Below are positions 13,183 through 45,222 of a DNA stretch of 47,111 nucleotides, piece after piece. Position numbers and translations under genes: made by a program. Source of the DNA: Candidatus Firestonebacteria bacterium RIFOXYD2_FULL_39_29. Its GTDB lineage: Bacteria > Oederibacteriota > D2-FULL-39-29. The notes below the pieces were generated by a model, which was not told the DNA's origin, did no database searches, and saw only the letters and a program-made list of their open reading frames with translations. The stretch lies in NCBI GenBank assembly GCA_001778375.1, contig MFGV01000010.1, positions 1-47,111 of the forward strand. Reading direction: 5' to 3'. Positions within the stretch are counted from its first letter, which is position 1. Each line of letters begins with the position of its first letter.

Positions 13183-13222
13183 CTTACTATTGAGCTCCTA
13201 AATATTAATCACTAAAAATATA

Positions 13223-13424
13223 ATCAATTACTAAGATCTAAGCACTAAATTCTAAACAATTACTAAATACTAAATTCTAATAACTAAACTAAATCATTGT
13301 AATTATTTTAATAAACTTCCTTACGTTTAGTGCTTTAATCTTAGTCATTGCTTTTCTTAGTGCTTAGTGCTTTAATCTTAGTCATTGCTTTTCTTAGTGC
13401 TTAGTGCTTTAATCTTAGTCATTG
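13223..13424. repeat. Composite inverted repeat block, family A, copy 1
   Basis: Left arm: short words CAATTACTAAGATCTAAGCA then CTAAATTCTAAACAATTACT and variants. Core (about 13289-13328): AAATCATTGTAATTATTTTA then ATAAACTTCCTTACG. Right arm: a 37-nt unit beginning AGTGCTTTAATCTTAGTCAT at 13329, 13366 and 13403 (two identical units and a partial third). The right arm is the reverse complement of the left-arm words. A second copy with the same core lies at 15760-16038. Confidence 0.8.
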
Positions 13425-14168
13425 TTTTTCAGTGTATTTCCTAATTGAATTAACAAAAAGTTCTTCCAGACTGTCTGTATTATTAGCTGCTTTAAGCTCC
13501 GCGGGGCTTCCCATTGCAATAATATCTCCGGTATAAACGAGCGCAAGACGGTTACAATTTTCCACCTCATCCATATAATGCGTGGTTACAAATACCGTTG
13601 TACCTTCTTCTGCCAACTTTCGAATTAGTCTCCAGAAATCCCTGCGGGATAAAGGATCTACCCCGGCCGTAGGTTCATCCAGAAAAAGTACTTTTGGCCT
13701 GTGAATAATCGAACAACCAAGAGCCAGCCTCTGTCTCCAGCCGCCTGACAATAATGAAGTAATGATCTTTTCTCGCCCCTTAAGTCCTGCCATCTCAAGT
13801 ATCTCAGTTTTCCGGGCAGCAAATTCTCCTGAGGCAACATTATGAATACCCGCAAAAAATTCTATATTTTCTTCCACAGTCAAATCGTTATACAAGGAGA
13901 ACTTTTGCGACATGTAACCTATTATTTCTTTTATCTTATCGGACGCCGTATCCACGTCAAAACCTTCAACGGTCGCGCTTCCTTTTGTAGGAGCCAAAAT
14001 ACCGCAAAGAATTCTTATGGTTGTGGATTTACCGGCTCCGTTTGGACCTATAAAACCAAATATTTCTCCGCGTCTAACTTGAAAACTTATACTATTAACG
14101 GCAATAAAGCTTCCAAAGGTCTTAGTAAGCTTATTTGCTTCTACTGAAAATATACCGTTTTCAATCAT
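13419..14168 (-). CDS. ABC efflux transporter ATPase, canonical subunit
   Basis: 249 residues. Walker A GPNGAGKSTT (about 40-49), Q-loop in GYMSQKFSLYNDLTVEEN, signature LLSGG (about 140), Walker B VLFLDEPTAGVDP and switch histidine in FVTTHYMDEVE are all intact. It powers the two ABC-2 permeases and most likely pairs with the neighbouring ATPase as a heterodimer, as in the YbhF/RbbA family where two such domains are fused. The ATG overlaps the preceding gene's stop (4 nt) behind GGAG. The protein's TGA stop is formed within the first bases of the family A repeat (CAATGACTAAG), so the repeat begins exactly at the gene's end. Confidence 0.93.
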   Translation of the reverse strand: MIENGIFSVEANKLTKTFGSFIAVNSISFQVRRGEIFGFIGPNGAGKSTTIRILCGILAPTKGSATVEGFDVDTASDKIKEIIGYMSQKFSLYNDLTVEENIEFFAGIHNVASGEFAARKTEILEMAGLKGREKIITSLLSGGWRQRLALGCSIIHRPKVLFLDEPTAGVDPLSRRDFWRLIRKLAEEGTTVFVTTHYMDEVENCNRLALVYTGDIIAMGSPAELKAANNTDSLEELFVNSIRKYTEKQ

Positions 14169-14884: not shown

Positions 14885-15743
14885 TTATTACCGCATCCGC
14901 AGGCATTCCCGGTTTTAGTTCGTCCTTTACATTATCAAGGAGTATTTTTACCGCAAAAACCAATCTTGTCCGTTCATCTTTAGTCTGAATATTTTTTGGT
15001 GTAAACTCCGACTGCGAGGCAATATTCACTACTTTCCCTTCATACTTTTTCCCCGGAAACGAATCATTTGTTACTTCAGCTTTCTGTCCGAGTTTTACTT
15101 TACCTAGTTCCGTCTCTGCAATATAAATTTTTAAATATGGCTTTTCTGTGTTCCCGACAGTTGCAACTGCCATTCCGGGGCTAAGCATCTCGCCTTCTTC
15201 TGCATTCTTACTCAGTATCACACCGTCTATCGGTGACTTTAGATAACAATTATCGATCATAGCTGAAATATAGGAAACCTGAGCTTCTGTCTGGTTTTTC
15301 TGTTCTGTACTTGATTTAAGTTGGGACTCAAGAACTTTGTATTGGGTCTCAAGCTGGTCAAACTGTTGCTTGGAAGCGGAACCGGCCTTTAATAGCTCTC
15401 CTGCTCTCTTATAATTATCCTCAGCATTCTTGTACTGCGCCCTTATCTGTACCATAACCTCAGAAGCACCATTCAGGGAGGCTTTGGCTTGTTTAAGCTG
15501 AGCATTTAATTCATCGTGCGCCAGTTCAGCTACAAGACCGCCCCTGTTAATCCTTCCTCCTTCTTCCACCGTCATCTTTTCAATCTTCCCCATTATCTTG
15601 GATGAGATGTCAACCTGCGTTACCTCAATGGTTCCGGAACCGGAAAGACCGTTACGCCTTGAATTATTTATACCGCTGATTACGAAATAAGCGGAAATAC
15701 CTAAAACCAGAACTATTGGAACTATTATCCTGCGTTTATCCAT
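14868..15743 (-). CDS. HlyD-family periplasmic adaptor (membrane fusion protein) of the ABC efflux pump
   Basis: 291 residues. The N-terminal anchor helix is RRIIVPIVLVLGISAYFVIS. It is followed by a lipoyl-like half-motif (VDISSKIMGKIEKMTVEEGG), a long alpha-helical hairpin at about 70-150 (NAQLKQAKASLNGASEV and LETQYKVLESQLKSSTEQ), the second lipoyl half (LKSPIDGVILSKNAEEGE) and a beta-barrel domain (KLGQKAEVTNDSFPGKKYEG). Closest group: YbhG/YhiI. It bridges the inner-membrane ABC complex to the TolC channel. The start has AAAGGGGG. Between it and tolC lies family A repeat copy 2. Confidence 0.92.
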   Translation of the reverse strand: MDKRRIIVPIVLVLGISAYFVISGINNSRRNGLSGSGTIEVTQVDISSKIMGKIEKMTVEEGGRINRGGLVAELAHDELNAQLKQAKASLNGASEVMVQIRAQYKNAEDNYKRAGELLKAGSASKQQFDQLETQYKVLESQLKSSTEQKNQTEAQVSYISAMIDNCYLKSPIDGVILSKNAEEGEMLSPGMAVATVGNTEKPYLKIYIAETELGKVKLGQKAEVTNDSFPGKKYEGKVVNIASQSEFTPKNIQTKDERTRLVFAVKILLDNVKDELKPGMPADAVINVKDN

Positions 15744-15759
15744 AAAACCCCCTTTAAAA

Positions 15760-16038
15760 TCAATTACTAAGATTTAAGCACTAAATTCTAAACAATTACT
15801 AAATGCTAAATTCTAACAACTAAACTAATAAAATCAATTACTAAGATCTAAGCACTAAATTCTAAACAATCACTAATACTTAATAATTAAATCTTAAAAT
15901 AAATCATTGTAATTATATTAATAAACTTCCTTACGTTTAGTGCTTAGTGCTTTAATCTTAGTCATTGCTTTTCTTAGTGCTTAGTGCTTAATTCTTAGTT
16001 ATTGTTTAGTATTTAGTGCTTTAATCTTAGTCATTGCT
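15760..16038. repeat. Composite inverted repeat block, family A, copy 2
   Basis: It has the same plan as 13223-13424: left arm of CAATTACTAAGATTTAAGCA and ACTAAATTCTAAACAATTAC words (here in two sub-blocks), a core with AAATCATTGTAATTATATTA then ATAAACTTCCTTACG, and a right arm of TTAGTGCTTTAATCTTAGTC words ending at the tolC stop. The core is nearly identical to copy 1; the arms differ in number and order of words. It fills the whole tolC-hlyD gap. Confidence 0.8.
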
Positions 16039-17334
16039 TTACCGTAGTTCTCCTGTTGCTTTCAAAAACGCGGCTTTCGCTATCGTCAGATCGTACAGTG
16101 CCTGCAGGTATGCAGTTCTGGCCGTAAGAAGGCTCAGGTGCGCATCCATTACGTCATAATTAGTATTTATACCGCTCGTATAGCTGGCTTCTGCTATTTT
16201 GTAATACTCCTCCGCCTGCTTTACGCTGTCTGACTGAGAGAGTATCCTTTCATTTGCTTCGTTCATGTTCAAAACCGCCTGTTTAACCTCTAGCTCTATC
16301 ATATTTTCTATCTGCGCTTTTGCAAGCTCAGAGGACTTTACCGCGGCTTCACCCTGTTTATATTTCCCGGCCGTAGAAAAGCCGTCAAAAAGAGGAATTG
16401 TAAGGAACACACCTGCATTCCAGCTCTCCACCCAGGCAAGCTGGGAATAATACGGATTTTGATAATTATAGCTCAAAGCACCCGTAAGCAAGGGTTTATC
16501 CTGCGTGGCGGTTAAAGCAAGAGAGGCTTCTGTAATCTCTTTTCTCGCTTTTGCCTTCTTAAGCTCTACCCTGTCTGAAAGAGCTTTTTTAAGTGCAGGC
16601 TCAAAGCTCTCAGCTTTAAATTCAACACCTTCGACTTCTTTAAAATCTCCTTCTACTTTTATTTCCTGCGCCAGAGGAACTCCCAGAAGATTTTTAAGGT
16701 TCTGCTGCGCCAGCTCATAATTATTTCTGCTTTTCGCAAGGAGCGGTTTAATATTCGAACCCCTCACTTTTGCCCGGAGCGAGTCAAAAGAAGAGCCGGC
16801 TCCGGCTTTTAACCGCGAGTCCGCCATTTTAATATTTTCTTCAGATAATGTATATGACTCCTCGTTGGTCTCCAGTATTTTTTTCGAAAGGATAACGGAA
16901 TAAAATGCCTGGTTGAGATTAAAAAGCGCCTGTGCTTTCACTTGTTCAAGTTCCAGCCTTCCGGCTTCCAGTCCTTTCCCGGCAACTTCGGGAGCTAAAA
17001 ACATTCTTCCCCAGTCAAAGATGGTTTGATTTAACGATGCTTTAAATATCCAGTTGTCACTCGCACCAAATTGTATGGCTCTGTTTATAGGAGCCGGCAT
17101 CTGGATAACAGGGACATTAGAGATGTAGTTATAACCTCCGGATAAAGAAAGCTTGGGCAAATATCCGGAAGATGCATCCGTAAATTTCCCCTCAGCATCA
17201 AGAACGCTTTGTTTTGCCAGAAGAATCTCGCGGTTCTTCTCAAAGAGAATATTTTTTGCTGCGTTATAATCCCAAGGCAACGTCCCTGCCCAGGCCGCAA
17301 CCAGCATTATTAACACCATTAAAACAGCTTTCAT
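16039..17334 (-). CDS. TolC-family outer-membrane efflux channel
   Basis: About 431 residues from ATG at 17334, chosen because AGGAGG lies 7 nt upstream; a longer frame from 17361 would include that ribosome site. Signal peptide KAVLMVLIMLVAAWA, no lipobox Cys. Two homologous halves carry TolC/OEP helices (LLAKQSVLDAEGKFTDASSG, LEAGRLELEQVKAQALFNLN, LEVKQAVLNMNEANERILSQ, LSLLTARTAYLQALYDL). The product is a trimeric channel across the outer membrane that takes substrate from the HlyD adaptor. It starts 31 nt after the tetR stop, so it is transcribed from the tetR promoter. Its TAA stop touches the family A repeat. Confidence 0.92.
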   Translation of the reverse strand: MKAVLMVLIMLVAAWAGTLPWDYNAAKNILFEKNREILLAKQSVLDAEGKFTDASSGYLPKLSLSGGYNYISNVPVIQMPAPINRAIQFGASDNWIFKASLNQTIFDWGRMFLAPEVAGKGLEAGRLELEQVKAQALFNLNQAFYSVILSKKILETNEESYTLSEENIKMADSRLKAGAGSSFDSLRAKVRGSNIKPLLAKSRNNYELAQQNLKNLLGVPLAQEIKVEGDFKEVEGVEFKAESFEPALKKALSDRVELKKAKARKEITEASLALTATQDKPLLTGALSYNYQNPYYSQLAWVESWNAGVFLTIPLFDGFSTAGKYKQGEAAVKSSELAKAQIENMIELEVKQAVLNMNEANERILSQSDSVKQAEEYYKIAEASYTSGINTNYDVMDAHLSLLTARTAYLQALYDLTIAKAAFLKATGELR

Positions 17335-34100: not shown

Positions 34101-35231
34101 TTATTTCTCCGACAAAATAATAGTTTCATTAATCAGCCCCATTTTACTAATCTGATTTTTGATATCCTGAGATCCATAGACCGAAGCTATTAATATTTTA
34201 TTATCTGATTTAATATCTGACGGAGCCGTTACAATTTTACCGCCGAATTCCTTACCCCATTTATTCTTATCGTTATCAACAAACATTGAAATATTGCACT
34301 TATCCAGGCGGGTTTGCATATACAATCTCTGTGCAAAACTCCCGGTTCCCCACACAATAATTTCTTCACGTGTTTTTATCAATTTTTCTATTTCAGGGTA
34401 AGTTTTAATCAAACAATCCTTTACATATACCTTAACAAGATCTCGACATTTTTCAGATTTTTCTATTTTCGGAAAAGAAGCTAATACCCAGCAAGCAGGA
34501 TAAAATTTATCTCCTCCTATGGCCCACTTCTTACTTCCATTCTCTAAAACTTTAAACCCATGCTGTATTGCCAGATTCACAAGAGAATAAACACCAAAAT
34601 GGTTAATATGTTCCAGATCAAAATAATTAAACGGAGTTACACTGTTTGCCTTATATTGCTCCAGATCCGGAGTTTCAATATATATTTGGCCTCCATCTGC
34701 CAATAAATCTTTAATACTATTCATCGCGGCGGCTATATCCAATATATGCTCCATAACATGCGATAAAATAATTGCATCAAATTTTTTATTAACTGAATTA
34801 TTATTAATACTGCCCCGAAACGCACTGATTCCATTTTTAATCAAAGAATCAACACAGGCCTTGCTGGGATCCAATCCGTAAACATATTTATAACCATCCT
34901 TTTTCAGCATCTGCAAAAGCTCGCCATTAGCAAATCCTATTTCCAGAACACTTTTACTTTTGTCAAATCTCCTGCGTAAACACTCAAAGATTATTCTGTA
35001 TTTATCCATATCAGAAACACTTACACCATTTTCATATATACTATGATCCCTATAAAATATATCATATTGCGCTTGAGTTGCGCTTGTATCAGCATAAACA
35101 AAATAACATCTATTACAAATAACTATATCGTAATTATCAGGCAGGTCAACACCTTTTAATAATTTAAATTCTAGTTTATGCAGAATCTCTACATCTCTAT
35201 TTCCGCAAACCGGACACGATCTATATTTCAT
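34101..35231 (-). CDS. Sugar C-methyltransferase (SAM-dependent, zinc-binding N-terminus)
   Basis: 376 residues. The N-terminal zinc knuckle CPVCG at residues 5-9 and CNRC near 37-40 opens the C-methyltransferase family (TylC3/NovU type). Motif I is SVLEIGFANGELLQMLKKDG, with GLDPSKAC next and LSHVMEHILDIAAAMNSIKD. The C-terminal third is Methyltransf_14-like (IIVWGTGSFAQRLYMQTRL, SMFVDNDKNKWGKEFGGKIV). These enzymes methylate C3 of 4-keto sugar nucleotides, or close relatives. The TGA of the ThDP gene overlaps its ATG. Which 4-keto sugar it methylates is unknown. Confidence 0.87.
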   Translation of the reverse strand: MKYRSCPVCGNRDVEILHKLEFKLLKGVDLPDNYDIVICNRCYFVYADTSATQAQYDIFYRDHSIYENGVSVSDMDKYRIIFECLRRRFDKSKSVLEIGFANGELLQMLKKDGYKYVYGLDPSKACVDSLIKNGISAFRGSINNNSVNKKFDAIILSHVMEHILDIAAAMNSIKDLLADGGQIYIETPDLEQYKANSVTPFNYFDLEHINHFGVYSLVNLAIQHGFKVLENGSKKWAIGGDKFYPACWVLASFPKIEKSEKCRDLVKVYVKDCLIKTYPEIEKLIKTREEIIVWGTGSFAQRLYMQTRLDKCNISMFVDNDKNKWGKEFGGKIVTAPSDIKSDNKILIASVYGSQDIKNQISKMGLINETIILSEK

Positions 35232-37081
35232 TTAGCCTCCGGAACCGCTATCATATTGGAATTAAACTCCTGTCTATCGAGAAACGGGTACAAGTCCTCC
35301 ATAGGCATTGATACAATTTTACCGTCAGGCATTACTTTTGAAGAGACTCTGGGTATAGTTTCCTGCATCGGGTCGACAAACACTTCGCATATTACCGGCT
35401 TATTTCCGCTCAATGTTTTTTTAATTCCTGATTTCAAACTTGTATTTTTGGTTATCTTCATGTATTTTATGTCATAAGCTTTAGCTACTTTTTTAAGTCT
35501 CGGCAGTGTTAGCCCGCTTGAAGGGTCGCAGGAAACAAGTCGGCCTTTAAAATGTCTATTCTGCATCATTCTAATGGAACCATACCCGTTATTATTTAAT
35601 ATAAATAACTTAAAAGGTATATTCAAGCGTTTTACTGTCTCCAGTTCTTGAATATTATGCTGCAACCCTCCGTCGCCTATAATACTTATTGTTTTCTTCC
35701 CGCTTGCAACACACGCCCCAATACCAGCCGGAAGACCAAAACCCATTGAACCCAACCCCGGGGTGTTCAGTATTCTTAGCCCTTTTTTAACTCTTATAGT
35801 TTGCATAGTTACTTCCGCACAGCTTCCTGAACTCCCGGGGACAATCACTTCCTTCCCTGTCAGACACTCAGAAAGCTCTTTAATAAACGCATACGTATTA
35901 ATATATTTATTATTACTCTTCAAACTCTCCGGATCCGGCACCGAGTATTTATTTCTCATCCCACTGCACCATTCTCTCCATTCCTTTTTTTCTTTATTAA
36001 ATATTTTCTCTTTATTTTTTTGTTTAGAATTTAGTGCTTTAGTCTTAGTTATTTGATTTAAGATTGCCTTTATGAATTGCCCCGCATCCATATTCACCGC
36101 AATTTTCTCAAAACCCAGCTTATTTATTTCATTCTTGTCTATATCCACAACTATCTTCTTGGCATTTTTTGCAAAGTTCCCATGATCAAATGCGGTCTGT
36201 GGCAGATCAAGCCGGGCTCCGATCGTTATAATTAAATCAGCATTTTGTTGGATGAAGTTAGCTGCTCTTTGCCCGACAGATCCAGGCCTGCCAAAATATA
36301 AAGGATGCATTTCTTCAAGAATATCCGAAGCCCTCCAGGTCAAAAGCACAGGTATTTTCAGTTTCTCTGCAAGTTTAACAAATTCCTTCTCCGCACCGGC
36401 AGCCCTAATTCCGTTCCCCGCCAGGATCACCGGTCTCTTCGCATTTTTCATCATCTCAACTATTCTTTTAATATTCTTTTGCCAACCATCCAACCTTCCA
36501 ACCTTCAAATCCTCTTTCTTTTTTTGCTGCGCATCCGCGCCTCTGAGCCTCCGAGCATCTATCATCGCTCCCTGCACATCAAGCGGTATTTCCAGCCAGA
36601 CCGGTCCCTGCCTTCCGGTTTTTGCCAGATAAACAGCTTTTTCTAGATGGTATCTGATACTGTTAGGATTCATTATTGTAACCGCATACTTTGTGATAGG
36701 TTTGACAAGAGAAACTACGTCAACTTCCTGAACTCCCATCTGACGGATACCTCTTCCTTTCAAAAGATCTTGCCTTTTGGCCTGCCCTGACATGAATAAA
36801 ACAGGTGTAGAGTCAATCCAGGATGCAGCAACACCGGTTATAGTGTTAGTACCTCCCGGACCGGTAGTAACAAGCACAGCACCAATTTTTCGCAAGTATT
36901 GAGCATCAGCATCCGCCGCAATCGCCGCTGCTTGTTCATGCAAAACCGTAATTTTATTCAATTTTTTGTTTTTGCCCAGGGAGTCAACCAAGTGCATACA
37001 TCCTCCCCCGGGAAGAAGAAATACATCTTTAGTACAATTTCTTTCAACAAACTTGATAACATAATCCGACAATTTTATCAT
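35228..37081 (-). CDS. ThDP-dependent acetolactate synthase-like enzyme (YerE-like), with two repeat-derived linkers
   Basis: 617 residues from ATG 37081, overlapping the stop of the preceding gene by 4 nt (a frame reaching 37114 lies inside that gene). The PYR domain has FLLPGGGCMHLVDSLG and catalytic Glu49 in VLHEQAAA. The PP domain has GDGG (469-472) and NNNGYG, the 25-30-residue-spaced ThDP/Mg site. This subgroup lies in O-antigen loci; its best-known member YerE joins a pyruvate-derived C2 unit to C4 of CDP-3,6-dideoxy-4-hexulose. RfbG and RfbH genes in the operon would supply that acceptor. Two interdomain linkers (residues about 174-201 and 343-356) are repeat-coded; without them the length is about 575, the family norm. 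Confidence 0.85.
   Translation of the reverse strand: MIKLSDYVIKFVERNCTKDVFLLPGGGCMHLVDSLGKNKKLNKITVLHEQAAAIAADADAQYLRKIGAVLVTTGPGGTNTITGVAASWIDSTPVLFMSGQAKRQDLLKGRGIRQMGVQEVDVVSLVKPITKYAVTIMNPNSIRYHLEKAVYLAKTGRQGPVWLEIPLDVQGAMIDARRLRGADAQQKKKEDLKVGRLDGWQKNIKRIVEMMKNAKRPVILAGNGIRAAGAEKEFVKLAEKLKIPVLLTWRASDILEEMHPLYFGRPGSVGQRAANFIQQNADLIITIGARLDLPQTAFDHGNFAKNAKKIVVDIDKNEINKLGFEKIAVNMDAGQFIKAILNQITKTKALNSKQKNKEKIFNKEKKEWREWCSGMRNKYSVPDPESLKSNNKYINTYAFIKELSECLTGKEVIVPGSSGSCAEVTMQTIRVKKGLRILNTPGLGSMGFGLPAGIGACVASGKKTISIIGDGGLQHNIQELETVKRLNIPFKLFILNNNGYGSIRMMQNRHFKGRLVSCDPSSGLTLPRLKKVAKAYDIKYMKITKNTSLKSGIKKTLSGNKPVICEVFVDPMQETIPRVSSKVMPDGKIVSMPMEDLYPFLDRQEFNSNMIAVPEAK
36014..36055 (-). repeat. Family A repeat words in frame inside the ThDP enzyme
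   Basis: On the plus strand TTAGAATTTAGTGCTTTAGT then CTTAGTTATTTG matches the TTAGTGCTTTAATCTTAGTC words of 13329-13424. It codes for QITKTKALNSKQKN between the central and PP domains. Confidence 0.65.
36479..36562 (-). repeat. GAGGCT/GGATGGTT-family words in frame inside the ThDP enzyme
   Basis: The minus strand reads GATGCTCGGAGGCTCAGAGG then CGCGGATGCGCAGC and, after a K/E-rich stretch, GAAGGTTGGAAGGTTGGATG then GTTGGCAAAAG. It codes for IDARRLRGADAQQ and KVGRLDGWQK in the linker between the PYR and central domains. The same words occur in five intergenic blocks. Confidence 0.7.
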
Positions 37082-38631: not shown

Positions 38632-38739
38632 GTTACGAGTGTCGGGTTACGAGTTACGGGTGAAAACTTTTCTGTTCTTGCTGGTTATCCAGACCTTTAT
38701 ATTTTCTTTTCGCTACTCGTCACTCGCTACTCGCTACCG
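38632..38739. repeat. CGAGTAGCGAG repeat block with inverted arms
   Basis: Left arm GTTACGAGTGTCGGGTTACG then AGTTACGGGTGAAAAC (38632-38666). Core (38667-38704) contains TTCTGTTCTTGCTGGTTATC. Right arm is CGCTACTCGTCACTCGCTAC then TCGCTACC (to 38739). The right arm is an approximate reverse complement of the left. The arm nearest rfbH supplies that gene's TAG stop. Confidence 0.7.
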
Positions 38740-40240: not shown

Positions 40241-41326
40241 GAAATCTCGTATCTGCCTCTCCGAGATTTCCCTTACATCTATTCCCGCTTCATAAGCTTT
40301 CGTCCACTCCACCACTCTCGAAATAGCTTCATTAATATCCCATTTCGGATACCAGCCAAGTTGTTTTTTTGCTTTTGAGTTGTCTAATTTTAAAAAATGA
40401 GCTTCATGAGGATGTTTACCTTTTTGAATAGAACATGACTTTGACGAACCCCATAACTCGCAGAATCTTTCTGCTATCCACCCTACAGATTTGCAGTCTT
40501 TTAAATCCGGACCAATGTTCCAAGCCCCTGCATATTTGGGACCGTTGTTGTAAAGCCTCTCGCAAATCATCAGATAACCGTTAAGAGGGTCCAGTACATG
40601 CTGCCAAGGACGTGTTGCACCCGGATTTCTTATCTCTATCTTCCCATCGGATAAAACCGCCCTGACAAAATCCGGAACAAGCCTATCAGAAGCCCAATCC
40701 CCGCCGCCAATAACATTCCCTGCACGCGCTGTGGCAACTGCTACTCCATGATTATTAAATTCTAAAGGATTAAAAAAAGAAGATCTATAAGCTGCCGTGA
40801 CAATCTCCGAACACGCTTTACTGCTTGAATAAGGATCATACCCCCCAAGAGGCTCTCCCTCTTTAAAACTCTTTCCGAGCTCTCTATTTTCATAAACTTT
40901 ATCAGTCGTCACATTAATAAAAACCCGGACATTTTTACAGCTTCGCACAGCTTCTAAAACATTAACTGTCCCCATAACATTTGTTTCATAGGTCTCTACC
41001 GGAATTCTATATGACTCTCTGACAATCGGTTGAGCCGCCATATGTATAACAATATCAGGATTTGCATTTTTAATCTCTCTTTTAACACGTTCCAAATCCC
41101 TGATATCCGCAATAACAGAGTTCATATCTTTTTTTAACTTCAACAATTCAAACAAACTTGGAGTAGTAGGAGGTTTCAGAGCATATCCTGTAACCTTAGC
41201 CCCCATTTTAATAAGCCAGAGCGTGAGCCAGGAACCCTTAAAACCGGTATGTCCGGAAAGGAAAACCCTTCGATTTTTCCAAAATCGCTGATGCGCAGAT
41301 GCTCGGATGCTCGGATGCTCAGTCAT
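40214..41326 (-). CDS. rfbG: CDP-glucose 4,6-dehydratase, with repeat-derived termini
   Basis: 370 residues from ATG 41326 (AGGAG, 8 nt; one base after the upstream stop). Core: FLSGHTGFKGSWL (NAD site), AAQPIVRESYRIPVETYETN, VTTDKVYENRELG, YDPYSSSKACSE (Y-x3-K), GGGDWASDRLVPDFVRAV and NPGATRPWQHVLDPLNGYL, all classic RfbG. The reaction converts CDP-glucose to CDP-4-keto-6-deoxyglucose in the cytoplasm. The family usually starts about 12 residues later; the extra HPSIRASAHQ is encoded by GATGCTCGGATGCTC repeats, and the tail EGRRVGRL beyond QIRDF is encoded by the block at 40214-40236. Both look like repeat invasion of a real gene. A glucose-1-phosphate cytidylyltransferase gene (rfbF) is not in the window. 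Confidence 0.93.
   Translation of the reverse strand: MTEHPSIRASAHQRFWKNRRVFLSGHTGFKGSWLTLWLIKMGAKVTGYALKPPTTPSLFELLKLKKDMNSVIADIRDLERVKREIKNANPDIVIHMAAQPIVRESYRIPVETYETNVMGTVNVLEAVRSCKNVRVFINVTTDKVYENRELGKSFKEGEPLGGYDPYSSSKACSEIVTAAYRSSFFNPLEFNNHGVAVATARAGNVIGGGDWASDRLVPDFVRAVLSDGKIEIRNPGATRPWQHVLDPLNGYLMICERLYNNGPKYAGAWNIGPDLKDCKSVGWIAERFCELWGSSKSCSIQKGKHPHEAHFLKLDNSKAKKQLGWYPKWDINEAISRVVEWTKAYEAGIDVREISERQIRDFEGRRVGRL
41286..41322 (-). repeat. GGATGCTC words coding the RfbG N-terminus
   Basis: The plus strand reads CGCTGATGCGCAGATGCTCG then GATGCTCGGATGCTCAG. In the rfbG frame (minus strand) this is the HPSIRASAHQ segment just after the start codon. Confidence 0.65.
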
Positions 41327-41327
41327 T

Positions 41328-41681
41328 CTAATTGCTCCTTTGGAGCTTATTTCGTAAAGCATTTATTCTTCTACCAAGTACAAATATTTTTTCCCTTAAC
41401 AATTTATCCTCCTGGATAAACCCAAGCACTTCACAAATAGACAGTATTGCTTCAACTTCAGATAATGAACCATTCGCTATTACAAGAAAGTTGCTAAAAT
41501 CTTTTGCTGTTTTCCTGCTTTTTCCCTCTGCGATGTTCAACGCAACTGATACTATTGACCGCTTCAATTGCTGCTTTAAATTATATTCTTCATTTTTCGG
41601 TAGTAAATCTGCAACTTTGTATACATCTTTAATCAAAGAAACACTTTCCTGCCAAATTTCCAGCTCTTTATACATATTCAT
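41328..41681 (-). CDS. Four-helix bundle protein (S23/IVP family, Avd-like fold)
   Basis: 117 residues. YKELEIWQESVSLIKDVYKV is the start typical of the 23S-rRNA intervening-sequence protein family; QQLKRSIVSVALNIAEGKSR then FLVIANGSLSEVEAILSICE covers helices 2-4. Proteins of this fold are often found in intergenic or rRNA-insert sites and are related to Avd, the accessory protein of diversity-generating retroelements. No reverse transcriptase or template repeat was seen. It lies between the initiating transferase and rfbG, stop one base before the rfbG start and containing the AGGAG that starts rfbG. Function in this operon is unknown. Confidence 0.85.
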   Translation of the reverse strand: MNMYKELEIWQESVSLIKDVYKVADLLPKNEEYNLKQQLKRSIVSVALNIAEGKSRKTAKDFSNFLVIANGSLSEVEAILSICEVLGFIQEDKLLREKIFVLGRRINALRNKLQRSN

Positions 41682-41775
41682 TATATCATTCCCCCTATCT
41701 ATCTTTAACCCAGCTACCCCCGTAGCCTATTTTTCATCTCTTACCGCTCCTCTGAACATCCGCTCTTTAGCCGCA

Positions 41776-41817
41776 CCTTTAGCCGCACATCTGCGCCTCT
41801 GAGCCTCCGCGCATCTA
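41776..41817 (-). repeat. GAGGCTCAGAGGC block beginning at the stop codon of the initiating transferase
   Basis: The minus strand runs from TAT-TAG (stop) into ATGCGCGGAGGCTCAGAGGC then GCAGATGTGCGGC. Upstream on the plus strand (41740-41775) further GCACCTTTAGCCGCAC words appear. Same family as 36479-36562 and 43724-43768. Confidence 0.65.
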
Positions 41818-44118: not shown

Positions 44119-45222
44119 TTACAACCTTTTCAATGCTATATATTCCGATATTCTTTCCTTGAATTTTTCTTTGGAAAATTTTTCAGACTGTTTTATGATC
44201 TCTTTTTTATCAAATTTCATATTTCTACTTTTATTTATTGCCTTTATTAATTCCGTTTCTGTCTGGGGGAAGAAAAGCACCCCTGTTTTTCCGTCAATAA
44301 CTGTCTCTAAAGCCCCGCCTTTACTATAAGCAATTACAGGAGTGCCGCAAGCCATTGCTTCCACCGGTACTATACCAAAATCTTCTTCTCCGGGAAAAAC
44401 AAGGGCTTTACAGTTAATATAATTTTCTTTGATAATGTCATCTGTTTGCCAACCCAAAAACTCTACATTATTTTTTGCCATTCCCTTTAATCTATTTTCA
44501 TCCTGTCCGTTACCGACTATTTTCAGTTTATATCCAAGCTCATTAAACGCTTTTACCGCAATGTCAATCCTTTTGTAAGGCGCAAACGCAGAAACCACCA
44601 GATAAAACTCCTTATTTTTTTCGAATTTCGAAGTTAGAATTTCGGGTTTGTACTTATTAGTATCAACCGGAGGATATATCACAACAGAATCACGGGAATA
44701 CGTTCTTTTTATTCTGCCTGCAATAAAATCTGAGATTGCAATAAAATGGTCAACCCGCTTTGAGCTCTTTACATCCCACTTCCTTAAAAACGGCCTTATT
44801 ATTCTCATTACGACTCTGACCGGAAAACCTGCTTTACCCGTACCAAAATAATCATTATACACATCCCAGATATAACGCATCGGAGTATAGCAATAGCAAA
44901 TATGTACCGCATCTTTTCCCGGTTTCACACCCTTAGCAACACAATGACTGGAAGAAATTACAAGATTGTAGCCTTCCAGGTTAAACCGCTCAATTGCAAA
45001 AGGCATTAACGGAAGATAATACCTGTATTTAGTTTCAACAAAAGGCATTCGTTGGAGAAAAGAAGTAAATATTTTATGGCTTTCTATTGTTATTGAAACA
45101 GAACCTTTGATATGTATCAATGAAAATATATCAGCATCAGGATAAAGTTCACAAAGCGCCTCTAGAACCTTCTCCCCGCCCCGCATTCCTGTCAGCCAAT
45201 CATGTACAATTGCTATTTTCAT
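44119..45222 (-). CDS. Glycosyltransferase family 4
   Basis: 367 residues. The N-terminal domain is IAIVHDWLTGMRGGEKVLEA, with SSSHCVAKGVKPGKDAVHIC and CYCYTPMRYIWDVYNDYFG. The C-terminal Rossmann domain has VVSAFAPYKRIDIAVKAFNE, VEFLGWQTDDIIKENY, then FPGEEDFGIVPVEAMACGTP (E-x7-E motif) and AYSKGGALETVIDGKTGVLF. This is the usual WbaZ/mannosyltransferase-type GT4 of polysaccharide loci. AGAGG precedes ATG. Residues about 193-203 (PEILTSKFEKN) are encoded by repeat-like sequence between the two domains. The donor sugar cannot be fixed. Confidence 0.92.
   Translation of the reverse strand: MKIAIVHDWLTGMRGGEKVLEALCELYPDADIFSLIHIKGSVSITIESHKIFTSFLQRMPFVETKYRYYLPLMPFAIERFNLEGYNLVISSSHCVAKGVKPGKDAVHICYCYTPMRYIWDVYNDYFGTGKAGFPVRVVMRIIRPFLRKWDVKSSKRVDHFIAISDFIAGRIKRTYSRDSVVIYPPVDTNKYKPEILTSKFEKNKEFYLVVSAFAPYKRIDIAVKAFNELGYKLKIVGNGQDENRLKGMAKNNVEFLGWQTDDIIKENYINCKALVFPGEEDFGIVPVEAMACGTPVIAYSKGGALETVIDGKTGVLFFPQTETELIKAINKSRNMKFDKKEIIKQSEKFSKEKFKERISEYIALKRL
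44614..44648 (-). repeat. CGAAATTCTAA-type words inside the GT4 gene
   Basis: The minus strand reads GAAATTCTAACTTCGAAATT then CGAAAAAAATAAGG, in frame, between the two Rossmann domains. Related words occur at 10567-10590, 26731-26755 and 46917-46940. Confidence 0.45.

Follow-up and report, generated by a model that had tools for sequence, protein, structure and literature searches.

The window, i.e. the whole stretch of 47,111 nucleotides analysed here, constitutes a single contig of the 3.0-Mb genome G000. It carries a sugar-nucleotide gene cluster in which the gene of a ThDP-dependent enzyme lies together with those for CDP-glucose 4,6-dehydratase (TIGR02622, above the cut-off), RfbH and a NeuB-like protein. 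The enzyme gene and the repeats within it are as follows:

35228-37081, minus strand: open reading frame of the ThDP-dependent enzyme, of the acetolactate-synthase fold and YerE-like by gene context (Pfam TPP_enzyme_N/M/C).
36528-36559, minus strand: linker 1 array 1, four octads GATGCTCG GAGGCTCA GAGGCGCG GATGCGCA, coding DARRLRGADAQ.
About 36475-36514, minus strand: linker 1 array 2, a period-8 array with GTTGGAAGGTTGGATGGTTGGCAAAAG, coding EDLKVGRLDGWQKN.
36014-36060, minus strand: linker 2 array of family A heptads, AACTAAGACTAAAGCACTAAATTCTAAACAAAAA, coding ITKTKALNSKQKN.

From its ATG start the enzyme counts 617 amino acids and begins MIKLSDYV. A role like that of YerE, in yersiniose A synthesis, would fit the gene neighbourhood, with CDP-glucose 4,6-dehydratase and RfbH/E1 genes nearby. 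The peptide MGRLDGGCEIK, 5' of the true start in a stretch that overlaps the adjoining gene, is regarded as a likeness due to chance. Both interdomain linkers of the enzyme hold in-frame arrays of degenerate DNA words: octads of the pattern GA[TG]G[CG][TG][CT][GA], in two arrays, in linker 1 (residues 174-203) and heptads of the CTAAGCA type in linker 2 (residues ~343-356). The first-pass annotation of this DNA had recognised two repeat families in frame in the one enzyme, and shuffled or reversed controls yield none or almost none of either. It had also placed them between domains, as is borne out by the Pfam matches, which in true-start numbering set TPP_enzyme_M at residues 204-339 and TPP_enzyme_C from residue 419; the best PDB match, 8rph, has gaps at both sites. 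An AlphaFold model computed from a two-sequence alignment with one orthologue had a mean pLDDT of 30.6; it was discarded and supports nothing here.

Orthologues are found in the window's own family (f1, comprising G000, G001, G003 and G004) and in a sister family (f2, G005-G008); G001, Candidatus Firestonebacteria RIFOXYA2_FULL_40_8, belongs to the same genus as G000. The enzyme measures 614-625 residues in the four f1 genomes and 593 in the four f2 genomes, the f1 linkers being longer than those of f2 and of more distant orthologues at the same two places: G001 and G004 are longer at both, G003 at linker 1 and slightly at linker 2. In the orthologue comparison the longer linkers were absent from G005-G008 and from G009, G011, G013 and G018. 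The comparison with orthologues lacking the inserts, proposed in the annotation, thus favours it, the arrays being absent from the 593-residue sister-family proteins and from distant ones. Its view that the protein has normal length once the inserts are removed holds in part: the orthologues are indeed shorter, but the net gain over the nearest uninserted ones is 24 residues (about +10 at linker 1, +16 at linker 2 and -2 at the C-terminus) and not 42. Similarly, the repeats do lie in the linkers as DNA, in frame, but linker 1 array 1 is a replacement and not a clean insertion. Since IDARRLRGADAQQ is colinear with native IDEKRLKGFTPAKK, this array substitutes sequence more than it adds any, and the exchanged stretch is nearly length-neutral (39 vs 42 nt). 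The native f2 linker 1 has ATAGATG and GCCAAAAAG where array 1 starts and stops, a single case judged by eye. As for homologues from distant organisms with the same linker peptide and no DNA repeats, which the annotation had named as contrary evidence, no distant homologue has the peptide, and the one near relative with it, G004, has the words too.

The words themselves differ between species. Linker 1 is built from GATGCTCGGAGGCTCAGAGGCGCGG words in G000, GATGCTTGGAGGCTTAGAGGCTTGG words plus CTCGTAACCCGTAACTCGCAACCCG in G001, GATGGTTCGAAGGTTAGAGGG words in G004 and GGTCGGAGGGTCGGAGGGTTGG words in G003, and linker 2 from family A in G000, a variant of the same array in G004 and family D, AATTCGAAATCCAAAATTCGAAATTCGAAAC, in G001. 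Because the sites are filled in four species of two genera, their occupation is old, and what has happened since is a turnover of words at fixed sites. Array 2 of linker 1 is identical at 29 of 30 nt between G000 and G004, which makes it the best-conserved 30-mer between them, although fourfold degenerate sites are only 37% identical (saturated). Outside this gene G004 is nearly wordless (one octad and no heptad pattern match), and words in the ThDP gene of so poor a genome require either array loss or lateral transfer, between which the gene tree does not decide. The G004 gene also has a third period-7 stretch, AACTCGAAACTTAAAACTCGAAATTCGAA (L139:6770-6798, coding VTRNLKLEIR), in its C-terminal domain, with length unchanged.

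Word arrays are not confined to this gene. Further arrays in the window are:

44619-44649, minus strand: in-frame run of family D words CCCGAAATTCTAACTTCGAAATTCGAAA, placed in a glycosyltransferase (open reading frame 44119-45222) at the linker between its GT-B domains.
13217-13430: intergenic family A hairpin of inverted heptad arrays with a short loop and no open reading frame (fold z = -3.45).
15753-16040: second intergenic family A hairpin, no open reading frame.
38632-38737: family C heptads of the GTTACGAG / CTCGTAAC type, paired in inverted orientation in the spacer that separates the RfbH gene from the NeuB-like one.

The glycosyltransferase insert occurs in G000 and, in a longer form, in G001, i.e. 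in two species of one genus, and in none of 11 other genomes. Octads also occur within a variable linker of a Fer4 protein of G000 (L066). The ThDP enzyme reads them in frame 0, the Fer4 protein in frame 1 and RfbG in antisense; with two sense frames and an antisense reading in use, the identity of the repeat resides in DNA and not in protein. Arrays also make protein ends, namely the N-termini of RfbG and RadC and the C-terminus of TsaE. The intergenic hairpins have inverted arms and look like MITEs. The linker 2 segment AACTAAGACTAAAGCACTAAATTCTAAACAA (36020-36057) resembles three intergenic arrays (13226-13259, 15738-15795 and 15829-15869), with 78-88% identity over 34-58 nt, and the in-gene family A copy departs from the commonest intergenic version in a way that leaves no in-frame stop.

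Arrays were detected by period scanning with laxer scoring and by IUPAC patterns; strict scoring missed most of them, and single-seed nhmmer was too weak for words so degenerate. The 12-mer CTAAGCACTAAA has 29 copies in 441 kb where 0.03 are expected. In 1.1 Mb of G000 there are 10 three-octad arrays and none in a third-order Markov control, and a scan of 1.1 Mb at threshold 12 gave 102 period-7, 21 period-8 and 108 period-9 arrays against 3, 3 and 6, respectively, in shuffled sequence. The heptad pattern matches 84 times in G000 and its reversed control once; the octad pattern occurs at up to 79 places per genome in f1, f2 and f7 and at one or two places in two other genomes, and its reversed control has no match in 59 genomes. 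G002 and G004 are nearly without either pattern. Open reading frames contain just 15 of the 102 period-7 arrays, though genes take up about 90% of the sequence. These tandem degenerate heptads, above chance and mainly intergenic, thus have the properties of the repeats known as STRR; the octads of family B have a period of 8. Among 229 G000 arrays, 36% have an inverted partner within at most 700 nt, compared with 1.2% of random segments. Two further families deserve mention. The nonamers GTTTGTAAG/GTTTATAAG are among the commonest G000 arrays and form the arms of some of the elements described below (e.g., L193, L194), and a 12-mer with a palindromic core, CGCCTAGGCGGA, with 12 copies in the G000 sample against 0.01 expected, apparently represents an unrelated repeat family.

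About 4 kb from the ThDP gene, in the same cluster and between protein genes, the octads recur as the arms of a small element (41290-41815):

41328-41681, minus strand: open reading frame of 117 amino acids for a four-helix-bundle protein, PF05635 23S_rRNA_IVP / TIGR02436.
41290-41321, plus strand: octad arm on the RfbG side, overlapping the 5' end of the CDP-glucose 4,6-dehydratase gene.
41784-41815, minus strand: octad arm on the sugar-transferase side, inverted with respect to 41290-41321.

The reading frame matches PF05635 with 103.8 bits (cut-off 33.8), and linker 1 array 1 resembles one arm of this element, with 88% identity over 40 nt (41778-41817). The other arm codes EHPSIRASAHQ in antisense within the CDP-glucose 4,6-dehydratase (RfbG) gene. 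An element lies at this place, between the sugar transferase and RfbG genes, in G000, G001, G003 (two copies, both degraded) and G005-G008, and its intact IVP proteins are 65-73% identical between genomes. Its arm words vary by species, the left and right arms being closer to each other than to the arms in most other species, and in each of the seven genomes the right arm lies in frame within the N-terminal part of RfbG, with differing words. At this site G004 has a fragment matching IVP residues 87-114 together with arm-like sequence, i.e. a remnant without reading frame. The complete 23S genes (~3.0 kb) of G000, G001 and G005 match the model end to end and have no large insertion.

Arms of this kind also flank other PF05635 genes. 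When the left flank is aligned locally with the reverse-complemented right flank, scores of at least 20 are reached at 22 of 42 PF05635 reading frames (the other 20 fall below) and at 1.1% of 843 control frames. The window element itself scores 16, a value reached by 2.4% of the controls. The arms are drawn from many word families (A, B, C and others), and PF05635 frames of other families and phyla have the same kind. Inverted repeat arms, mostly of heptads, flank all 12 such frames tested on cyanobacterial plasmids (L264-L275), where one of 40 control coding sequences reaches a score of 17. All controls were taken from just two sources, G000 and one Nostoc plasmid, and the enrichment is thus not matched genome by genome. 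Several of these loci have features of their own: L269 and L274 sit between cas6 and cas4 and L264 between ribonucleotide reductase genes, and two IVP elements (L220, G013:C4:6879-7187; L222, G024:C25:35813-36124) have arms of ~100 nt with a complex word order and scores of 43 and 52. An inverted word pair at L121:803-1371 overlaps a frame of 171 amino acids that appears HEPN-like by eye and is not PF05635; other cargo may exist.

We consider it probable, if not strongly so, that the arrays in the linkers derive from IVP-type hairpin elements, as solo arms that were copied there in frame and later rewritten. In such an element, arrays of degenerate 7-9-nt words would form a pair of inverted arms around a PF05635 four-helix-bundle gene; many copies would have lost the gene and persist as hairpins or single arms. 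PF05635 elements, whose inverted arms use the same word families, are the likely source of the linker arrays. Arm sequence would have entered both ThDP linkers in the ancestor of f1, or else spread within f1, most likely by template switching from other arrays during replication or repair, guided by microhomology or homology and not by a transposase; the match of ATAGATG and GCCAAAAAG in the native f2 linker to the array ends suggests such microhomology. The words at each site may then have been slowly swapped, both by slippage inside an array and by conversion from other arrays, selection retaining only stop-free, in-frame versions where the fold can accommodate them. Paired change of both arms of an element could come from hairpin-templated correction, a known mutational process. 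The in-frame words, different ones of which stand at the same joints in related species, suggest that besides spacer DNA such elements also reshape proteins. The first-pass annotation went further and called the inserts direct evidence of repeat movement, which they are not: neither a transposase nor a within-species empty site is in evidence, and inspection revealed no target-site duplication, all of which counts against the solo-arm reading too, as do the scarcity of words elsewhere in G004, the small number of IVP genes relative to arrays, the single case of microhomology and the 20 PF05635 loci that score below 20. The direction from element to gene is likewise our inference, and IVP genes could instead have settled in pre-existing arrays.

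A real but minor chance must be given to the explanation that these are STRR-type repeats and nothing else, arising by slippage and spreading by recombination, with PF05635 genes targeting hairpins and the linker arrays unrelated to the element. To our knowledge, the cyanobacterial STRR heptads have been described without any linked gene, as this explanation would have it, and degeneracy within arrays suits slippage. Most arrays here are without a reading frame; indeed, the seven IVP frames of G000 face some hundreds of arrays, which leaves most of these with no visible tie to the gene. Related heptads, inverted pairs included, are found in Nostoc and Xanthomonas (PMC4692102). On the other hand, PF05635 elements tend to own a matched pair of arms, the words of the orthologous element differ by species while its left and right arms still match, and arms are present at 12 of 12 cyanobacterial plasmid frames. 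Vertical descent under constraint, i.e. one insertion in the f1 ancestor that gave linkers now conserved at the protein level, the repeat likeness being residual, has little probability. It would explain why KVGRLDGWQK and ITKTKAL are common to G000 and G004, but the same sites hold unrelated peptides in G001 and G003, these peptides are again encoded by DNA words, of other kinds (at both linkers in G001, at linker 1 in G003), and other genes use these words in different frames and in antisense. Very little probability attaches to a classical MITE or RPE-type insertion, with a transposase acting in trans and palindromic inserts in frame as the result, for which in-frame selfish inserts in many Rickettsia genes (PMC10969869) and the MITE-like intergenic hairpins are precedents, given that the gene inserts are single-direction arrays without the palindrome that marks a Rickettsia palindromic element in a reading frame, that linker 1 array 1 is nearly length-neutral, and that no target duplication was seen by inspection.

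Returning to the solo-arm reading, a wider proposition, held tentatively and with slightly more doubt than belief, is that arms of degenerate 7-9-nt words are a general hallmark of PF05635 genes across phyla. Dispersed repeats of this sort, the cyanobacterial STRR heptads included, would then be arms or remnants of an unrecognised but widespread class of hairpin elements, with arms that are rewritten pairwise and that also enter proteins in frame. The dispersed heptad repeats of cyanobacteria and other bacteria have lacked an owner for decades, and most of what is known of the IVP protein comes from insertions in rRNA; the evidence given here unites the two, such repeats being arms of elements around the IVP gene. 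It also offers clear cases, at fixed sites and in several species, in which selfish repeats appear to have become protein linkers and then been rewritten, which opens direct tests of how disordered linkers arise and of what IVP does.

Several known systems share part of this picture. The STRR of cyanobacteria are heptad repeats, and Elhai and colleagues are reported to have worked on small dispersed repeats in these organisms. The heptad arrays of Nostoc and Xanthomonas lie mostly between genes and, in the latter, frequently form inverted pairs (PMC4692102). With these and with STRR our arrays have in common the heptad arrays and the mostly intergenic location, and they differ in their link to PF05635, which extends to cyanobacterial plasmids; no paper connecting PF05635 with heptad repeats was found in the literature searched, most subscription journals lying outside its reach. 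The TAACTGA heptamers of marine Beggiatoaceae likewise form mostly intergenic arrays, the few in reading frames lying mainly at protein peripheries (PMC4679880); that system consists of one heptamer with few internal gene insertions, whereas here many degenerate families and internal linker sites are involved. The RPE of Rickettsia (PMC10969869) resemble the present inserts as selfish DNA held in frame inside unrelated protein genes, but are palindromes of ~150 bp in ten families, in contrast to short one-way arrays whose words vary by species. The tandem repeats of Borgs (PMC9879509), which also evolve fast and add disordered segments to proteins, have in-gene units in multiples of three that result in amino-acid repeats; units of 7-8 nt, as here, give no such repeats. 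Finally, the IVS with an S23 gene, e.g. that of Coxiella burnetii, are suspected mobile elements of unknown mechanism (PMC4990558). The elements described here lie outside rRNA, have word arrays for arms and have probable solo arms inside protein genes, but they share with the 23S rRNA IVS an S23/IVP gene set between complementary arms that form a stem.
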